Below are positions 1,150 through 10,741 of a DNA stretch of 64,000 bases, one piece after another. The translations under genes and the position numbers were made by a program. Source of the DNA: Ignavibacteria bacterium (GTDB lineage Bacteria > Bacteroidota > Ignavibacteria > Kapaibacteriales > UBA2268); contig JAOADV010000008.1 of assembly GCA_026417135.1 (NCBI GenBank), forward strand, positions 1 through 64,000, in the 5' to 3' direction. Within the stretch, counting starts at the first letter, position 1; each line of letters starts with the position of its first letter. The notes beneath the pieces were generated by a model, which made no database searches, had not been told where the DNA came from, and worked only from the letters and a program-made list of their open reading frames with translations.

Positions 1150-2793
1150 TCAAAGTAGTGTATTGAAATTAGAGAAATGAAGTGCGTTGAATGGAAAATC
1201 CGAATAGAGAAAATTCATCATTTCCTTTTTTAAACTAACAGGGAGAAATTGATAAAATTTCCCAAACTTTTTATGCCTTTTAAAGTAAGGAGCGTATGCT
1301 TTGCCTTCATATTTTATAACCCTAATCTCATATTCTTTAACCTTAACGACTTTCCATATGCAACCAGAAAGAACAAAAATTTCGTCGAATATCCCAGTGA
1401 TAGAACCAATCGACTTGCCAGTACTTATGTCAACAACATTGTATTCTTTCGAATCAGGAATATTTGAATGTATGAAACCTTTTTCTCCAAAATCCAAAAG
1501 TTTGGTAGATGGGTAAATCAATTCACCTTTACTTTCTAGCCAATCGCAGTAGGAAAGATGGGACAAAATAAGTTGAATTAAAAAGTTTGGTGCAATTTCA
1601 CTTAGATACTCTGTTAACTTTTTTACTTCTAAACCCGACCTTATCTGAAAAAGAAGAGAAAATATTTGTTGAACTATCACAGAAAAATCTGGGAAATAAT
1701 CTTCGACGGGTAGCAATCCCAATTTAGCCACCTCGAACATTTCAGCAAATAAATTTTTCTCGTGTATCGTCCTGTATATACCAATACAAAAAACTTTATT
1801 TTTTTTTCTGTTGCCTCTTCCAATTCTTTGGAGTAATGAAGTAATACTCCAGGGCAAATCACACAAAATTATGAGGTCAATGCTACCTATATCAATACCA
1901 ACTTCTAAAGATGATGTAGATATGCACGCAGCGGCAATGGCTTCGCGCATTACTTGTTCGGCTTCTTCTCGTGATGCTTTCGATAAACCACTATGGTGAG
2001 TAACGACAGGATATGGAAACAAAAATTTTCTAAAAATCCCTGAATAATTTTCTACCTGTTCACGTTTATTACAAAAAGCAAGGATTTTTTTAAATCCTTT
2101 TTTCTTGGAAAATTCTAAAGCTTCTTCTAAGGAAGGAAAGAGATAATATTCGATTTCACGACAACCGTCGACTGTTACTTTTTCAAAGTCTTTTACATAC
2201 CTCTTTGCAATTCCAGAAGGATTGGACAATGTAGCTGAAAGTAATATTACAGCCATAGATTTAAAGCGTGTTAAAACTGAAATTCTCTTAAGTAATACTC
2301 GTAATTGGTCACCTCTATATGTGTTGTCGAGCAAATGAATTTCATCGATAATAATAGTTCTAACATTTGTAAATAAATAGCTTTGTCTGCAAATCAATGA
2401 ATCGAATGACTCGGGAGTAGTAATTAATATGTTTAAATTCTTCTTCTTTGAAATATTCAATTTATCACCGTGTTTGATACCTAAGAATATATTCATATCC
2501 AGAAGTGGGCCCTCCAACCTCAAATAAATGTCGTTAGCAAGAGCTCGGGTAGGAACAATGTAAACCACTGAAAGTCCTTTCCATTTTTCCTTCTTTATTC
2601 TTTCTGCGATAGGAGCTACAACTGCTTCGGTTTTCCCCGAAGCGGTAGGCGCAGAAATCACTAGGCTTCGACCTTCTAGTACTTTTGGTATAACTTTTAT
2701 TTGAATAGGTGTTAGTTTTCCAAAACTTGAAAAGAAAGGATTCCAAGAATAAAATAATTGTTCTTTAATTTTGAATGTTTCATTTAAGTTCAT
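1150..2793 (-). CDS. DEAD/DEAH-box helicase, Lhr/BrxHI-like, last gene of the defence operon
   Basis: This is a superfamily 2 helicase of 547 residues. The motifs appear in order: a Q-like LTPIQ at 27-31, Walker A APTASGKT at 48-55, PTRAL at 81-85, TTPES at 125-129, DEIH at 150-153, SAT at 186-188, and motif VI QRIGRGNR at 322-329. The C-terminal 200 residues look like the winged-helix/accessory part of Lhr-type helicases, but the protein is far shorter than classical Lhr. It overlaps the end of the upstream ATPase gene by 14 bases, so the two are translationally coupled. In the Shango and BREX type 2/6 defence systems, as I recall them, a similar helicase accompanies DUF2791 ATPases. An antiphage role is therefore inferred from context. 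Confidence 0.88.
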   Translation of the reverse strand: MNLNETFKIKEQLFYSWNPFFSSFGKLTPIQIKVIPKVLEGRSLVISAPTASGKTEAVVAPIAERIKKEKWKGLSVVYIVPTRALANDIYLRLEGPLLDMNIFLGIKHGDKLNISKKKNLNILITTPESFDSLICRQSYLFTNVRTIIIDEIHLLDNTYRGDQLRVLLKRISVLTRFKSMAVILLSATLSNPSGIAKRYVKDFEKVTVDGCREIEYYLFPSLEEALEFSKKKGFKKILAFCNKREQVENYSGIFRKFLFPYPVVTHHSGLSKASREEAEQVMREAIAAACISTSSLEVGIDIGSIDLIILCDLPWSITSLLQRIGRGNRKKNKVFCIGIYRTIHEKNLFAEMFEVAKLGLLPVEDYFPDFSVIVQQIFSLLFQIRSGLEVKKLTEYLSEIAPNFLIQLILSHLSYCDWLESKGELIYPSTKLLDFGEKGFIHSNIPDSKEYNVVDISTGKSIGSITGIFDEIFVLSGCIWKVVKVKEYEIRVIKYEGKAYAPYFKRHKKFGKFYQFLPVSLKKEMMNFLYSDFPFNALHFSNFNTLL

Positions 2794-4117
2794 TTTCTAA
2801 ATACTTAGCTACAGCTTGAACTCCATAAAACCTAACTAAATCAAAAATTTCAACAATTGTTTTAAAAGTTAGCCTCGTTTGTTTGTCGAAAATCTCCTTT
2901 TCAAACAAGGGTTCAATTTGAATAAAATCGGGGATTGAATTATATGAATTGAAATAAAACTCATAAATCCTTTGTATGGCTTGTTTAATAGATTCAAAAG
3001 GTAAGCTATCTAAGTGCACAACGAGAGAATTAAACTCATCATAAATCGAATTTGTGTAATAATTGGTGGTGGCAAAGATTAATTTCAATCCACTTGGTAA
3101 TTTAAATAAAAACGGGACATATTTTCCAAGACCTTGTTTACAAAAATCAAATTCGATATCTATTAAAAATGGCAAATTCAACAAAAACTCAAAATCCATT
3201 GAACAGTAGACTAAAGCTTTAAGGAAATTAAGTCCTTGAAAGTAATTACGTTTATTATTTACAGTTTCGATATTTTCGGCTTCATCAAAAATTAACAATA
3301 AACCGTTTAAACCAAGAACCTCTTTAGCAGCCCAACTAAGAGAACTAATTAAATAACAATATATATTTGCAGCACTCGAAGTGTCGTACAATCCAGGATA
3401 AGGATTACTATAATAGCCATAAAACCCAAATTCAAGAATAGGTTTTGGACTTTTTGAACTTGCTTCTATCCAATTCCATAAATTTTCATTAGCCTCTAAG
3501 GTGATATGCTTGAAATATATATTGTCTTTAAAAGCATTTTGAACTATTGCTTCTTTCAAGAAGTCTCTAAAACCTTTTACCTTTTTATCATTCTTACAAA
3601 GATACTTAAAATTCCTAACTAAATAATGGTAAATACTTTTTGGCTTGTGGAAAGGCGTTTCGTTTGGGTCTATGCTAACAAAAGAAACTGCAAAATTGTT
3701 ATTTAAAGAGGTATAATAAATATGGCTTAGTAGGTGTGTTTTGCCACTTCCATATTCTCCATCTATTAGAATGATTTTGCTTTCATCATTGTTTAAACTA
3801 TCATTAATTGTTTGAATTTCATTCTCTCTGCCAAATGTAAATTCTATAACATAGTCGGCAGGGACAATGCCTAATCTTAAGGCTTCGATTATCCGACGAT
3901 TTTCGTCGGGGGGTTCCGGTAAAATTTTTTGTCTATTATCATTTCCGCCTATACTTGGAATACTATTGGCTTCTATTATTTCTACTTCATCAATTCGAAA
4001 TCTAAACTTACCATTTTCTGGAATTTCAACAAATATGAAGTAATCATTGTAGTTAGTATCAACAACAATACCCTCCCCATATTTAGGATGTCGAACTCTC
4101 TTACCAAGTAAGTTCAT
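2780..4117 (-). CDS. BrxD/DUF2791-type P-loop ATPase with N-terminal Tudor/CarD-like domain
   Basis: I chose the ATG at 4117 (445 residues), 7 bases after the upstream stop; an alternative start 16 codons earlier would overlap that gene. Residues 1-50 (GKRVRHPKYGEGIV) resemble the small beta-barrel found in CarD and at the C terminus of UvrD/PcrA. Next comes the BrxD signature RRIIEALRLGIVP. Walker A is GEYGSGKT at 120-127, the family motif NETPFHK is at 152-158, and Walker B IFDEAEN is at 276-282. Together these place it in the DUF2791 (BREX BrxD / Shango SngB-like) ATPase family. It is a paralogue of the next upstream gene, but only that core is shared. It probably works with the helicase encoded directly downstream. 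Confidence 0.85.
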   Translation of the reverse strand: MNLLGKRVRHPKYGEGIVVDTNYNDYFIFVEIPENGKFRFRIDEVEIIEANSIPSIGGNDNRQKILPEPPDENRRIIEALRLGIVPADYVIEFTFGRENEIQTINDSLNNDESKIILIDGEYGSGKTHLLSHIYYTSLNNNFAVSFVSIDPNETPFHKPKSIYHYLVRNFKYLCKNDKKVKGFRDFLKEAIVQNAFKDNIYFKHITLEANENLWNWIEASSKSPKPILEFGFYGYYSNPYPGLYDTSSAANIYCYLISSLSWAAKEVLGLNGLLLIFDEAENIETVNNKRNYFQGLNFLKALVYCSMDFEFLLNLPFLIDIEFDFCKQGLGKYVPFLFKLPSGLKLIFATTNYYTNSIYDEFNSLVVHLDSLPFESIKQAIQRIYEFYFNSYNSIPDFIQIEPLFEKEIFDKQTRLTFKTIVEIFDLVRFYGVQAVAKYLENELK

Positions 4118-4124
4118 TTTCTTT

Positions 4125-5357
4125 TTATTTAAAATCCAATTCTTCAAGAGTTGGAAAAGACCCATTATTTTTAAAATAGTTTAAAGACTGAATAAATTTC
4201 TGCACAAATAATCTTTTGTAACCGATATCAGCATACCTCATTTGGTAAGCAGCTTGGGCAATTTCTTTGATGGCATCACTTACTAAATTATCATCCGTTT
4301 TAAAATTATAGGCAATTTTATATATTTCAAACAATTTTTCCCCTATTTGATTTAATAATTCAATGGGTTCAATCTCTAAGTTGTCAAGATAAATTTTGAC
4401 ACCTGATGGATTAAAAAAATTGAAAGTAGTTTTTAGTCTCTGTCTTAAAGCCTCATAAATCATTGTTTTGCCTTCTAAAAAGTTTTCATCGGGAACGGCA
4501 TAAAAAATTATTACATTCTGAAAATTTGTGTTTGCGCACTCATCTATTATTTCTCGCAAGTTATTTAAAAGCATTTCTTTATTTCTTGAACTTAAACTGG
4601 AAATTTTTTCCGCTTCATCAAAGAGAATGACAAGACCAGAGTAGCCAATTTCCTTTATCCATCTAGCCATTGAACGAATTAGAGAAAAGGCTATTGTTTT
4701 GTCTATTTTTTGAAATATTCCATATTTTTTGTGTATCTTCCTATCGTAACTCTCACCTATTAACCATTGGAGAATATTGAGAAAGTCTTCATCGTTATTA
4801 TGAATTAAAGATTTAAAAGCTTCTTTGATTGCATGGTAAAAATTAATATTTTCCCAAAAGTCGAAACTATTTATATATTCTAATAAAGCTTCGGTTATTT
4901 GTGTTTTTTCGCGAGTATGTTCAAGTAGTTTTTTATATTTTTCCGAATACCAAGAACGAATAAGAAAACTAATTCCAATTGTAGGACTCTTTAAAAGCTC
5001 ATTAGGATCTAACGGTGGTATTAAACCCTTGGCTAATGCTTTATATACAAACTCTAATTTATGAAAAGGACTTTCGTTAGGACTCAATCTTACGTATGAA
5101 ACAACATAATTGCAATTCCAAGCAAGCTCTCGAATACAATACAAAAGATGTGTTTTTCCACCACCATATGTACCAACAACCATTTTAAAGGCTGACCCAT
5201 TATTAAAAATAAAGGTTTTCAAATAATCCTTTTCAATTATCTTTAAATAGCTCTCAAGTCCAACAGTATAATATTTTACTCCTGCCTCGGGTGGAATACC
5301 ATTAGAACCAAGAGTTTCGATAATTATCTTGGCTGTAGCTGTGTCCAAATTTTCCAC
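4125..5357 (-). CDS. BrxD/DUF2791-type P-loop ATPase
   Basis: This 410-residue protein starts at a GTG at 5357, preceded by a strong Shine-Dalgarno GAGGAGG 6 bases upstream. That site lies inside the end of the upstream gene, so translation is coupled. An ATG two bases earlier is out of frame. The signature features are IIIETLGSNGIPPEAGV near residues 11-27, Walker A GTYGGGKT at 62-69, NESPFHK at 94-100, and Walker B ILFDEAE at 244-250. This is the standard layout of BREX BrxD, here without an added N-terminal domain. No BREX pglX, pglZ or brxC is nearby, so a Shango-like or related defence role fits better than BREX. Confidence 0.87.
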   Translation of the reverse strand: MENLDTATAKIIIETLGSNGIPPEAGVKYYTVGLESYLKIIEKDYLKTFIFNNGSAFKMVVGTYGGGKTHLLYCIRELAWNCNYVVSYVRLSPNESPFHKLEFVYKALAKGLIPPLDPNELLKSPTIGISFLIRSWYSEKYKKLLEHTREKTQITEALLEYINSFDFWENINFYHAIKEAFKSLIHNNDEDFLNILQWLIGESYDRKIHKKYGIFQKIDKTIAFSLIRSMARWIKEIGYSGLVILFDEAEKISSLSSRNKEMLLNNLREIIDECANTNFQNVIIFYAVPDENFLEGKTMIYEALRQRLKTTFNFFNPSGVKIYLDNLEIEPIELLNQIGEKLFEIYKIAYNFKTDDNLVSDAIKEIAQAAYQMRYADIGYKRLFVQKFIQSLNYFKNNGSFPTLEELDFK

Positions 5358-5358
5358 A

Positions 5359-6213
5359 TTAAACCTCCTCGATTTTTAAAAAAGCATATGTTGCGCCATC
5401 TCCATTTTCATTTTCAGGAACCCATAAAAAATTTGATCTGTCTTTAGTCGTGGCTTTTGTTGTGCTAATTAACTTGATTTTATACTGAAACAAGTCGTTC
5501 TTTTTATAAGTATTTAACCTATAAAGGTCGTAGCTGAAGTTCACCCTACCATAACTAAAATAATTCTCTTTCTTTGGGTCCATATAGAATTTTTTATCTT
5601 GGAGAAGGGAGGATAATTCTTTTAGGATGTCGATGATTCTTACCCCCTCTTTTTTCTGATTTTTAGATACACTTACGTAAGCTTGACGTAATTTTTCGTA
5701 TAATTTTTCAAGTGGTATTTTCGATGCTAGTTTTGACTTTTGTGATTGAATTTCTTTCAAAATACTTTCAATTGATAAACTGCGTTTATTAAGAAACTCT
5801 TGTTTAGGACCATACCAAATTCTAAAAGATCCTTTTGTAAAATCTACTTCAATGGTAAACAAACCAATCTTAAATTCCGGAAAAGTTCCCACAAGCCGCA
5901 AACCTACACTATTTAAAGATTCTTCTAATTTTGTCCCAAAATTTCTCTTTTCTTTCTCGAATTTTTTTTCAAAGTTTTCCTTTAATTGGTTAATTTCTTG
6001 TTCTAAACATTGGTAAGTTGTAATATTCGACTCAATTTGTCTCAAGTTCCTGATAAATATTGTATATAAATTAGATAACCGGAAGTAAACAATGTCGTCT
6101 GATTTAAATAGTTTATACATTTCCTTGACTATATTAGAAAGTTCTTTATTCGCTTTAACTAATTGCGTAAGTTTCTGAAATGTTTCGCTTGGTGCTAAGA
6201 CATTTTTCTCCAT
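5359..6213 (-). CDS. Uncharacterised coiled-coil protein, first gene of the defence operon
   Basis: I chose the ATG at 6213 (284 residues). The frame stays open 39 codons further upstream, but that extension crosses a good promoter at 6222-6252, whose transcript should begin within a few bases of this ATG. Residues about 56-100 form a charged coiled coil rich in E and K. A predicted beta-rich segment follows (FPEFKIGLFTIEVDF at about 111-125), then more helix and a C-terminal beta segment. I recognise no domain, and I see no TerB motif, although a TerB protein is expected as the partner in Shango-type operons. It has no signal peptide or membrane segment, so it is cytoplasmic. Its stop overlaps the start region of the downstream ATPase. 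Confidence 0.75.
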   Translation of the reverse strand: MEKNVLAPSETFQKLTQLVKANKELSNIVKEMYKLFKSDDIVYFRLSNLYTIFIRNLRQIESNITTYQCLEQEINQLKENFEKKFEKEKRNFGTKLEESLNSVGLRLVGTFPEFKIGLFTIEVDFTKGSFRIWYGPKQEFLNKRSLSIESILKEIQSQKSKLASKIPLEKLYEKLRQAYVSVSKNQKKEGVRIIDILKELSSLLQDKKFYMDPKKENYFSYGRVNFSYDLYRLNTYKKNDLFQYKIKLISTTKATTKDRSNFLWVPENENGDGATYAFLKIEEV

Positions 6214-6473: not shown

Positions 6474-7262
6474 TTAGCCAAAAAGGGTATTTTGATTTGG
6501 GCTTACAATTCTGCGTTTAGTTGTCTTTTCTGCATATTTTTCTTGAAGGCGGTCCAAGATAATCTGGTAATATTTTTTTGAAATTTCTATTGTAACAAAA
6601 TTGCGATTCAATTTTTTAGCAACGTAGGCTGTGGTGCCAGTTCCGCCAAAAGGGTCTAAAACTAAATCACCTTCGTTTGAACTTGTTTTGATAATTAATT
6701 CCAACAATTCCTCTGGCATTTGGCAAGGATGCCCAGCTATTCGTTCCTTGAAAGTACCACAAACTCTCGGAAAGAACCAAACATCATCGGGAACTTTTCC
6801 CATTGGATGTGCTCTTTTGTCATTATATTTTAGTTGCCTAGCAGAAGGTATTCTAATGAGCTTGTCATTAAAGATATAGTTGCTATTGCTTTTGGTAAAA
6901 AATAAGATGTGGGTATGGGCTCTACTAAATTTCTTCCTTTGATTTTGGCCAAAGGTATAATACCATATTATCCAATTTCTATAATAAAAACCAGTTTTTT
7001 TGAGGATGATATTTATTTCGGCTGCAAACTCGTCTCCAATAGCAACATAAATCGACCCGTTGGTTTTTAATAGTCTGTATGCTTCTTTTATCCACTTTTC
7101 AGACCAATTATAATACTCGTAATATGGCATCTTATCATTGTGTAAATCGTATCTTATTCCTATATTGAAGGGTGGGTCAGCAAATACTAAATCTACAGTT
7201 TGGTCTGGAAAACTTTTCATCACTTCTATGCAATCTCCAAGATAGACTTTATTTAGGTCCAT
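6474..7262 (-). CDS. Beta-class DNA amino-methyltransferase (N6-adenine or N4-cytosine)
   Basis: This 262-residue protein has catalytic motif IV DPPF at 29-32, a variable central region (residues about 100-170, the likely target-recognition part), HPCQMPEELL at 178-187, and SAM-binding motif I DPFGGTGT at 203-210. This order (IV, recognition, I) defines the beta class. DPPF is compatible with N6-adenine or N4-cytosine methylation. Its ATG overlaps the TAA of the upstream endonuclease gene by one base (TAATG), so the two form one transcription unit. It presumably protects host DNA from that endonuclease. Confidence 0.92.
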   Translation of the reverse strand: MDLNKVYLGDCIEVMKSFPDQTVDLVFADPPFNIGIRYDLHNDKMPYYEYYNWSEKWIKEAYRLLKTNGSIYVAIGDEFAAEINIILKKTGFYYRNWIIWYYTFGQNQRKKFSRAHTHILFFTKSNSNYIFNDKLIRIPSARQLKYNDKRAHPMGKVPDDVWFFPRVCGTFKERIAGHPCQMPEELLELIIKTSSNEGDLVLDPFGGTGTTAYVAKKLNRNFVTIEISKKYYQIILDRLQEKYAEKTTKRRIVSPNQNTLFG

Positions 7263-8095
7263 TATTTCCCTTCATCATAATTAAATAAGTCGCAAGGCTT
7301 AATCTTGAATTGCAATTTTTGAGGGTCGGGAGTTCCACCTTTTCTTTGCATAGTTATCCTCCCAATATAAAGACTTCCTCTTGGTGAAACTAGAACCTCA
7401 CCGTATCCGAAAAATTTTATTGCTGAATTAATGTCTTTTAATGTCCAAGTTGTTGTATTTTCATTCTTATCATATTTGGTTACAAGCATCCAGCTTGCAG
7501 AAAGCTCGCCCCTACCCTTTAAAATGTCGCTTACAATTTTGCTTTTATTGGTTAAGAAGAAATTAATAATTTTTCTTTTCACCTCATCTGGCATTTCAGA
7601 TATTAGAACTCTTCCTCTTTCTTTTAATTTATTCATACCACAGTCCTTAGGATTTAGTTCGCCAGTAAATAACTTTAACCACTTTGAAATTTCATCGTCA
7701 AAATTCCACATTTTTTGGTATTCATCTACTTTCCTTTTGTCAACTTGGTTGAAGTTAGCATCAGAATTTGCCTTTTTTAGAGATAAATTTTCAAATTTTA
7801 TTAAGCTCTCGACACAAATAATAATTCTTATTCGAACATCAGTTTTTTTATATTTCGATATTTCGTTGAGTTTATCGTCAGATAATTTCAGTGCATTTAA
7901 ATCCTTCTTCTTGGACCTGTAAGGAATTTGGTAAGCATAAAGTTCTTTTATTTTCGTTAAATCGTAGCCCATTATTTTGAGCCATTCTTGGGCATCCTCG
8001 TCGGATTTCCAATTATTGAACTTGTCGCAAATTGCTTTTTCGTTTGCAAATCCACCTTTCGCAGTCCTTGAACCAAGTGCTTTTTTATCTATCAT
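7262..8095 (-). CDS. Type II restriction endonuclease, HinP1I family
   Basis: I chose the ATG at 8095 (277 residues); a TTG four codons earlier has no usable ribosome site. From memory of R.HinP1I the similarity is extensive. It covers the N terminus (LGSRTAKGGFANEKAI, AQEWLKIMGYDL), FNQVDKRKVDEYQKMWNFDD, a TGEL segment, ILKGRGELSASWML, and the C-terminal SPRGSLYIGRITMQRKGG followed by LQFKI. The putative active site is D86 and, about 20 residues on, S105-L-K107. In HinP1I I recall Q-x-K at that place, so the glutamine appears replaced by serine. HinP1I cuts G^CGC, but the specificity here is unknown. The methyltransferase gene follows directly. Confidence 0.85.
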   Translation of the reverse strand: MIDKKALGSRTAKGGFANEKAICDKFNNWKSDEDAQEWLKIMGYDLTKIKELYAYQIPYRSKKKDLNALKLSDDKLNEISKYKKTDVRIRIIICVESLIKFENLSLKKANSDANFNQVDKRKVDEYQKMWNFDDEISKWLKLFTGELNPKDCGMNKLKERGRVLISEMPDEVKRKIINFFLTNKSKIVSDILKGRGELSASWMLVTKYDKNENTTTWTLKDINSAIKFFGYGEVLVSPRGSLYIGRITMQRKGGTPDPQKLQFKIKPCDLFNYDEGK

Positions 8096-8440
8096 TTTTA
8101 CGTTCAACCTTCAAAAAGGTCATCTATAATATATGAATAAAATGCAAATTAAAGAATTTCTCAATAAGTTAATGTTCGAAATAATATAGGAATGGTGGAA
8201 TAGTGGATTTATTTATTTTATTTTTTGGATATCCTAGTTGCGTATCTCGTTCTTTGAAATTCGGTATAATAATTTTCAAAATTGTTCAAGACAAATAATT
8301 TTTTATAATCACAAAAAAGTTTAGGGTGAATAAAGTTTTAGATTTTTCCAAGGTTAAATTTATTTTAATCTAAAAAGTGTGTAATTTTGTCAACATATTT
8401 AATTTTTTTAATTTGGAAGGTTATTTTGACACAACTTGTA
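8096..8440. other. Divergent intergenic region between the restriction system and the T9SS protein gene
   Basis: This AT-rich stretch has no gene. It must hold the minus-strand promoter of the restriction-modification pair, where I see no clear consensus, and the plus-strand promoter of the next gene (see 8382-8389). Confidence 0.5.
8382..8389 (+). promoter_or_regulatory. -7 element TAATTTTG upstream of the T9SS protein gene
   Basis: This is an exact TAnnTTTG match about 50 bases before the chosen ATG at 8441. No good TTG lies at the -33 position, so the call is tentative. It also argues against the longer frame starting at a TTG at 8387. Confidence 0.4.
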
Positions 8441-10741
8441 ATGTCGATATTAAAATATAAATTAAATTTCTTCCGCATTTTTCTTTTTATGGTTCTTTTT
8501 ACTTGTCGAAATTTGAATTCACAAGTACTTATATTCAATGAATTTACTCCCGCCGATACTATTGATATGGGAATGTGCCAACCCGGCGATTCAATCGAAA
8601 CGGAATTTAATATCATTAATTTAAGTGGGAAAAGATTGAAAATTGGTGGCAACGATTTTACCTTCCTTATTGGTCGGGCGGTCGACGACCCCTTTAACTT
8701 CGACTTTTTGGAATTTTTCGGACCGAGAGAAATTCCTCGAATTATCGACACAAATGAAAATTATATTTTAAAAATTAAGTATAAACCTTTTTCTCCTTCT
8801 TTGCAGTTCCCCGAAGGGAAAAAAATTGTGAGGCTAAGGCTTGGGGTCTTCGACCCAGCCAAAGGAGACCCTCCGGCTACTTTCGACGAGCTTGTCGAGA
8901 TGAGAGAGTTTATTCTTATTGCCCGTAAAAGCGCTACCGAACTTGGAGTTTACGAGCAAATTTTGGACTTCGATTCTGTTTGGATTAACCCGAAAGATAC
9001 TCTTTATCGATACTTAACAATTCAAAATAATACAAGTAGAGAACTAACTATTGATAGTATTATCTTCCATCGCTCCTTTAATGCTGAAATACGAATGAAT
9101 ATAATTCCTACACCTATAAAACTCCCGCAATATCGCTCTGGAGAAGAGAGGTTAAATTGCAGTTTTTCATATTATCCGCAAAATTTTGGGCGCGATACTG
9201 CAGTTGTCCAATTTATCTATCGCCCACCGAGATTTCCCGATAGTATAAAAACTGCTAGTACAATTATTCGCGGCGTTGGAGTTCAGCAAAGAATTAATCT
9301 TTTGAAAGTCGAAAATGCAGAGATAGTTGAAAATTTCATCGATTTAGGCTCTGTACCATTGGATACCTTTAAAAAGGTCAAGTTGTTTATCCAAAATAAT
9401 GGAAATTTGCCTTTTGGATTGTTGTCCCAGAACATTTTAGAATTTTACACAAACTCGAAATCTCTTGGGTTTGAATTTTTCGATACTTTGAACAGCGAGC
9501 GTATGCTCCTTCCGACTCGAATTGATTCATTTTCCGTGGTGTTTCGCCCAACCCAAAGAGATACTTTCCTTGCTCGTATAGTTCTTTATAGCGATATAGT
9601 AAAACGAAGAATATATGGCTATCCCGATTCTGCTAAAACTGTGGTTTTTAATTTACGTGGAGTTGGCTTAGCTCCTAAATTATCTTCCGATGTAACTACT
9701 ATTAATTTCAATAATATTATTATTAATACAGCAGAAGGTTGCCCGATTATTCGCGACACTTTGATTCGCATAACAAATTCCGGAAACTACGTTCTTCAAG
9801 TGCAAAAAGTTTCGGTGGAGCCACCATATCCCCGAACTCCTTTTAGGATTTTCGATGAAAATTTCGAAATTCCCCCATATTCATCGAGATTTCTAAGGGT
9901 TGTCTTCGATTCTATTGCAAAGGAACCCGGAATTTATCGGGCAAATTTAATCTTAACTTCGAGTTTTTCGAAGATGAAAGATACTTTAATTATACCTCTT
10001 AGTGCAGTTGGCGTTCTACCCGATTCAATTTCTATTTCATTCCCAGAGGAAATTTTTGTGAAACCCGGCTCGAGCATTTCTTTGCCAATCCTTGTTCAAA
10101 AAGATAAAATTACACGTGCAAAGGAATATATCGACACTATTACTTTTAACAACAGTATCTTACTTTTCCGTTCTTTTAGAACAAGTGGTACTGCTGCCGA
10201 AAAAGTGGAAAAGACTGAAATTAAGCAACTTGAAAATGGCAGATTGGCTTTGCATCTTCGGACACGCTTCAACGAAAGTTTTGTCCCACGCGATACTCTT
10301 TTGCTCTTGAATTTCGATAGTTTCGTCGGTAACGATGTTACATCCATTTTGGAGTTTACTTCGCCCCGCTTTGGCGATTTGATTTGCGCACGAGTTCTTT
10401 TGCCGAAAGCTCATTCCGGTAAAGTTAATTTGGATTCCTTATGTGGAATTCGACGAAAACTTTTCGATGGAAGTAAAATTTTCTTTAAGTTATTCGACCC
10501 GGCACCTAACCCAGCGAAGAATTCGCTCGAAATAACTTTCGGCGTTGCTTTCGAAACAAGAACAGAAATTAGCCTTTATGGTTCATATGGAAATTTAATT
10601 TCTAATTTAGTCAGCCAAGTCCTTCGTCCAGATATTTACCATCTTAAATTTGATTTAAGCGATTTGCCACAAGGTGTTTATTTTGTTCGGATGCAAAGTG
10701 GTATATTTCAAGAAGTTAAACAATTTATTAAGACTGATTGA
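8441..10741 (+). CDS. Secreted multi-domain Ig-like protein with T9SS C-terminal sorting domain
   Basis: The chosen ATG gives 766 residues; the frame is open upstream to a TTG, but only this start puts the signal peptide (about residues 5-28, ending LNSQ) at the N terminus. Several repeats resemble the HYDIN/ASPM-SPD2 'choice-of-anchor D' Ig fold (LTIQNNTSRELTI, LFIQNNGNLPFGLL, IRITNSGNYVLQVQKVSV). A cohesin-like segment follows at about 540-660. The last 80 residues are a T9SS type A sorting domain: PAPNPAKN, then DLSDLPQGVYFVRM, then a basic end. It is predicted to cross the outer membrane by T9SS and be anchored or released. The function is unknown. The next gene overlaps its stop codon. 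Confidence 0.85.
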   Translation: MSILKYKLNFFRIFLFMVLFTCRNLNSQVLIFNEFTPADTIDMGMCQPGDSIETEFNIINLSGKRLKIGGNDFTFLIGRAVDDPFNFDFLEFFGPREIPRIIDTNENYILKIKYKPFSPSLQFPEGKKIVRLRLGVFDPAKGDPPATFDELVEMREFILIARKSATELGVYEQILDFDSVWINPKDTLYRYLTIQNNTSRELTIDSIIFHRSFNAEIRMNIIPTPIKLPQYRSGEERLNCSFSYYPQNFGRDTAVVQFIYRPPRFPDSIKTASTIIRGVGVQQRINLLKVENAEIVENFIDLGSVPLDTFKKVKLFIQNNGNLPFGLLSQNILEFYTNSKSLGFEFFDTLNSERMLLPTRIDSFSVVFRPTQRDTFLARIVLYSDIVKRRIYGYPDSAKTVVFNLRGVGLAPKLSSDVTTINFNNIIINTAEGCPIIRDTLIRITNSGNYVLQVQKVSVEPPYPRTPFRIFDENFEIPPYSSRFLRVVFDSIAKEPGIYRANLILTSSFSKMKDTLIIPLSAVGVLPDSISISFPEEIFVKPGSSISLPILVQKDKITRAKEYIDTITFNNSILLFRSFRTSGTAAEKVEKTEIKQLENGRLALHLRTRFNESFVPRDTLLLLNFDSFVGNDVTSILEFTSPRFGDLICARVLLPKAHSGKVNLDSLCGIRRKLFDGSKIFFKLFDPAPNPAKNSLEITFGVAFETRTEISLYGSYGNLISNLVSQVLRPDIYHLKFDLSDLPQGVYFVRMQSGIFQEVKQFIKTD

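Follow-up and report, generated by a model that had tools for sequence, protein, structure and literature searches.

Pairs of a BrxD and a BrxHI protein, or of an SngB and an SngC protein, are widespread in defence. We know of no account of what the ATPase does to the helicase in either pair. In the type 2 bacteriophage exclusion (BREX) system, or Pgl, the dyad consists of an ORC/Cdc6-type AAA+ ATPase adjoining a Lhr/Ski2-like helicase, and loading of the helicase by BrxD has been put forward as a proposal in section 24 of a 2026 survey of BREX and related systems (PMC12839542). Shango, a small stand-alone operon that was tested as an antiphage system, combines the TerB protein SngA, the BrxD-like ATPase SngB and the BrxHI-like helicase SngC (PMC10250203). 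Here we describe a four-gene module, A-B-C-D, located in a 64,000-nucleotide stretch of contig JAOADV010000008.1 from an Ignavibacteria bacterium (GCA_026417135.1), hereafter the window. The module shares the ATPase-helicase core of type 2 BREX and Shango yet is distinct from both, and it probably has a role in defence. On balance, we favour the reading that it is a distinct stand-alone system and a mobile accessory unit, in which the two ATPases B and C would load the helicase D on target DNA.

The four open reading frames (ORFs) are tightly packed on the minus strand and read from 6213 to 1150 (Table 1). A single base separates A from B, which begins with a GTG behind AGGAGG, 1 base past the stop codon of A. 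Between B and C there is a 41-base overlap of the ORFs, which becomes a gap of 7 bases if C starts at ATG 4117; this ATG, ahead of the Tudor domain, is likely the true start of C, whose ORF opens inside B. The ORFs of C and D overlap by 14 bases. A promoter scan returned sites no more frequently than in shuffled sequences, and its best site, upstream of A at 6469-6440, is at most suggestive. A preliminary description, made from the letters of the window, had proposed a tight four-gene operon with two BrxD-type ATPases and a helicase, and the ORFs, their spacing and the family matches bear it out. The arrangement is beyond chance because the same gene order recurs in at least 34 loci besides the window, with all four genes present in 24. 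Six of the 10 loci without the full set are cut by contig ends, and in the other four no D is seen after C (L046, L063, L066 and L067). The hosts comprise Cyanobacteria, Desulfomonile, Acidobacteria, KSB1, Nitrospinae, Sumerlaeota, Clostridiales and archaea.

Table 1. Coordinates of the A-B-C-D module and of the two genes next to it in the window (SF2, superfamily 2)
Feature	Position	Strand	Product	Family match
Gene A	5359..6213	(-)	284-aa protein	no family in Pfam, PADLOC, NCBIfam or PDB
Gene B	4125..5357	(-)	BrxD-like ORC/Cdc6-type AAA+ ATPase	Pfam BrxC_BrxD 2.2e-51
Gene C	2780..4165	(-)	N-terminal Tudor-like barrel and divergent BrxD-like AAA+ ATPase	Pfam BrxC_BrxD 3.2e-23
Gene D	1150..2793	(-)	SF2 DExH helicase, short Lhr/BrxHI type, 547 aa	Pfam DEAD, Helicase_C
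Neighbour outside the module	6474..7262	(-)	N6/N4-type DNA methyltransferase	Pfam N6_N4_Mtase 4e-60; PADLOC MTase_II
Neighbour outside the module	7262..8107	(-)	HinP1I-type restriction endonuclease	Pfam R-HINP1I 2.1e-52

Both ATPases exceed the Pfam cut-off for BrxC_BrxD (PF10923), an ORC/Cdc6-type AAA+ family, and their Walker A and Walker B motifs are intact (GTYGGGKTH and VILFDEAE in B, GEYGSGKTH and LLIFDEAE in C). Neither reaches the NCBIfam BrxD equivalog, the scores being 128 bits for B and 68 bits for C against a cut-off of 350. To place the two proteins, we built a quick maximum-likelihood tree from 83 sequences, with support from the Shimodaira-Hasegawa-like approximate likelihood ratio test (SH-aLRT), in which branches are long and for which the tool warns of long-branch joins. 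In this tree, C forms one group (support 89), the main B group comprises 26 rows including B of the window (SH-aLRT 99), and BrxD and the SngB-like set are separate from these. Four divergent B rows are not part of the main B group: three, from Aulosira, Desulfomonile and L080, fall beside SngB (85%), and one, from L046, is unplaced. B and C are separate old ATPase groups that have long diverged. The internal branching order of the two groups is alike, as expected if B and C travel together.

A PcrA/UvrD-type Tudor-like barrel at the N terminus of C (residues about 19-60) is present in most family members. Its motif, VxHPxxGxGxV, is common to C and the C-terminal Tudor domain of PcrA/UvrD; in C the domain is fused to an AAA+ ATPase. 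The Pfam model PcrA_UvrD_tudor matches one C-family member with an E-value of 5.8e-4, the barrel in C of the window is under Pfam detection, and no barrel is present in the Aulosira, Desulfomonile, L080 and Methanosarcina copies. Foldseek searches with the AlphaFold2 model of C (predicted local distance difference test score, pLDDT, 81.5) retrieved ORC/Cdc6, TnsC, RdrA and other AAA+ proteins. The predicted core resembles the folds of the DNA loaders ORC/Cdc6 and TnsC at E-values of about 1e-4 to 1e-3, with low overall TM-scores (about 0.3-0.4) and an identity of about 11%.

The first protein, A, has no counterpart in the family libraries (Table 1). It consists of an N-terminal helical/coiled-coil region (residues 8-102), an alpha+beta middle part (107-183) and a C-terminal helix-helix-helix-strand region (193-283). 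Judging from the order helix-helix-helix-strand-strand in the model, the C terminus may be a winged helix and thereby a possible DNA-binding end. The AlphaFold2 model of A is confident (mean pLDDT 84.5), and Foldseek found no convincing match to it among PDB structures (best E-value 0.5) or viral structures (best E-value 0.02). The sequence of A is poorly conserved, yet it is homologous with the first genes of the Desulfomonile and Aulosira modules, as hhalign with the A5 profile gave 97% probability and E-values of 5e-11 and 2.5e-10, respectively. The best-kept residues cluster at Q205, F209, P213, K215, Y221, R223, F226, Y228, D229, L230 and L233. Two candidate relationships of A were rejected. 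That A is an SngA/TerB protein is contradicted by an hhalign probability of 0.1% between the A profile and an SngA and by the lack of any TerB match in all 12 A-family members examined. Kinship with the three small genes upstream of the Aulosira BREX core is likewise contradicted, with hhalign probabilities of 0.1-0.8%, a range that includes the SngA comparison. Three A-profile matches in Acidobacteria, at L075:997-2010, L076:9125-10138 and L079:9531-10364, do not adjoin B, C or D and are possible stand-alone relatives of A.

These results bear on whether the module is a variant of Shango, in which A would have replaced the TerB protein SngA and SngB would have been duplicated into B and C. 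The two operons are alike in being small and in comprising a first protein, an ATPase and a helicase, and with the PADLOC models B matches SngB at 1.3e-29 and D matches SngC at 1.1e-61. The same search matches B to BrxD at 6e-39 and D, with a better score, to BrxHI at 3.9e-67. The module differs from Shango in having two ATPases and no TerB protein; its helicase is of the SngC type, whereas neither a TerB first gene nor a single SngB-type ATPase is found, and A has no similarity to the SngA profile. Neither B nor C has the other as its closest relative, and both fall outside SngB, which argues against a recent duplication of SngB, even though three divergent B sequences lie beside it. We therefore consider a Shango variant improbable.

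Likewise, the module could be an accessory of BREX or what is left of a BREX locus, since B is similar to BrxD and D to BrxHI, and in the cyanobacterium Aulosira laxa the module follows directly after a type 2 BREX operon. In that stretch (L043, plasmid AP018310, 4762-24287), the type 2-like BREX system retains its own BrxD and BrxHI beside the module, so that three BrxD-like ATPases and two helicases are found in total. The plasmid pDESTI.01 of Desulfomonile tiedjei carries all four genes without BREX. At the window copy, PglZ, BrxC and PglX do not adjoin the module; among the scanned ORFs, neither BrxC/PglY nor PglX was found beside the operon, the left side being partly visible as the contig starts at base 1 of the window; the methyltransferase close by belongs with the HinP1I-type endonuclease. 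No BREX PglZ was found in the genome, whose single PglZ match, on another contig, is a PorX-like fusion of a response regulator with a PglZ domain (G000:C61:13853-14431; L096:796-2373). A BREX remnant was rejected on these results, and the whole explanation is highly improbable. Compared with the BREX dyad, the module has two ATPases, a first protein with an unmatched fold, the Tudor domain of C and a shorter helicase, and it has no PglW, PglX, PglY or PglZ. The preliminary description had suggested that the locus may be related to Shango and BREX but distinct, with neither set complete and no TerB motif visible in the first gene. The comparisons above support this view, and none of the PADLOC, Pfam or NCBIfam models covers A.

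The helicase of the window has all of motifs I, II, III and VI intact in the motif alignment (PTASGKTE, DEIH, SAT and QRIGRGNR) and does not contain the long C-terminal region of BrxHI. D occurs in a short form of about 520-560 residues in the window, archaeal, Nitrospinae and Sumerlaeota copies, and in a long form of about 680-770 residues in the Acidobacteria, Aulosira and Desulfomonile copies. Three of the loci without D after C (L063, L066 and L067) are archaeal metagenome-assembled genomes with A-B-C, and L063 retains approximately the first 17 codons of D.

The module is sporadically distributed. Gene A was detected in 1 of the 123 genomes from the order of the window, 1 of 82 KSB1 genomes, 17 of 186 genomes of an archaeal order and 12 of 247 genomes of the Acidobacteria phylum, three of the 12 without B; when weak BrxD/SngB-type matches are set aside, a single genome out of 395 from the phylum of the window has C. 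Scanning genome contigs with the C alignment identified at least 11 loci, all with A and B, from Acidobacteria, Clostridiales, Methanosarcina, Candidatus Methanoperedens, Nitrospinae, KSB1, Sumerlaeota and others. When the A profile was used alone, B adjoined A in 21 of 25 loci, and one of the four exceptions was at a contig end. Among plasmids, C first retrieved Aulosira laxa plasmid3 by tblastn, where four genes correspond in size to those of the window, and this copy in turn led to Desulfomonile tiedjei pDESTI.01; no relative was found among plasmids by tblastn with A, and those relatives emerged through C only. The module is thus present on two plasmids, a conjugative one (Aulosira, beside BREX-2) and a small one (pDESTI.01).

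In the window, the module stands directly downstream of a head-to-tail restriction-modification pair (6474-8107), and together they occupy a variable, defence-rich spot. Four genomes of the same genus do not have the module and keep the flanking gene for a 784-residue secreted protein at about 58% identity. In a sister species (L091, G970), that flank holds the candidate defence system PDC-M23A/B and a type III methyltransferase, located in L091 upstream of the homologue of the secreted-protein gene at 8387-10741 of the window, and another genome of the genus has a weak match to the dynamin-like LeoBC. This exchange of defence genes at one flank suggests that the module of the window sits in a defence hotspot. 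The defence island is the weak point of the preliminary description: it fits the hotspot of the window, and the Aulosira copy also adjoins defence genes, but most other copies lie among housekeeping genes.

Several observations weigh against a purely defensive role. Most relatives are surrounded by genes for tRNA synthetase, topoisomerase VI, SecDF, radical SAM proteins and transport. A pooled scan of 130 neighbours found few defence families, a count that, without a random-gene control, speaks for neither enrichment nor absence; the reverse transcriptase and Cas1 matches among them can probably be traced to the reverse transcriptase of a group II intron in L049. No copy of B was found by tblastn against phage records, and in viral contigs the pattern scans with B and C found none and the B profile brought up a single weak locus, which is not convincing. 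In addition to the four copies in which no D follows C, the Methanosarcina-type D proteins (L047, L051, L057, L058 and L059) have lost Walker A and motif VI, with, for example, PEKEGISEAV at the position of Walker A and, in some copies, DGVH at that of DExH. These proteins are nonetheless full length and under purifying selection, with ratios of nonsynonymous to synonymous substitution rates (dN/dS) of 0.22-0.25, next to 0.07-0.12 for B and 0.11-0.19 for A in the same archaeal lineage, and the module is fixed in the Methanosarcina-like genus (4 of 4 genomes). The Methanosarcina-type D is a conserved pseudo-helicase. A helicase that is dead yet conserved indicates that helicase activity is dispensable in this lineage and that a cellular role is possible. 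Either the archaeal protein is a domesticated derivative, or D functions as a DNA-binding subunit.

The strongest rival explanation is a role in genome maintenance, in which B and C would deliver D, either as an active helicase or, where it is helicase-dead, as a DNA-binding subunit, to stalled forks, R-loops or transcription complexes and thereby keep the host genome intact. The housekeeping neighbourhoods, the fixation in one archaeal genus together with the strong constraint on B, and the PcrA/UvrD-type Tudor domain of C are all in line with it, as are two Methanoperedens-like copies in which gene A directly follows topoisomerase VI genes on the same strand (L049:4607-7554 and L056:2090-5037). 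Against such a role, no more than a few percent of the sampled genomes per group have the module, two copies are on plasmids, and in the genus of the window its site carries defence genes that differ between genomes. We regard the maintenance role as unlikely on this evidence, albeit a serious competitor.

Under the favoured reading of a distinct, mobile stand-alone system, B and C would assemble into a mixed AAA+ ATPase complex and, at the cost of ATP, bring D onto target DNA or activate it there, in line with the proposal for the BrxD-BrxHI dyad. A would serve as an adaptor or sensor, and the PcrA-type Tudor domain of C could anchor the complex, with transcribing RNA polymerase as a possible partner. 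Because the module has no nuclease or modification enzyme, we propose that D would block or strip the replication or transcription of foreign DNA, or expose that DNA to other nucleases. The intact Walker motifs of B and C, the intact helicase motifs of D, the predicted ORC/Cdc6- and TnsC-like fold of C and the analogy with BrxD are consistent with loading; complex formation, the loading step, the target and the antiviral outcome are what we infer from them. A bolder and rather doubtful reading, which we entertain tentatively, is that the module represents an ancient immune or genome-surveillance system spanning bacteria and archaea, in which ORC/Cdc6-type loaders form a mixed pair and A, with a new fold, is the adaptor or effector, and that it was domesticated with a dead helicase in one archaeal genus.

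Text searches of the 2026 survey (PMC12839542) returned no such module, and no description was found under Shango, BrxD, PF10923 or the locus tags in open-licence papers, leaving room for an earlier description elsewhere. As far as the open-licence literature shows, the module is a so far undescribed gene set of the BrxD-BrxHI/Shango kind. Gene A is a marker of this operon across bacteria and archaea that the defence libraries searched do not cover. The module provides a BREX-free ATPase-helicase core with two specialised ATPases and with natural dead-helicase variants, which makes the loader hypothesis directly testable.

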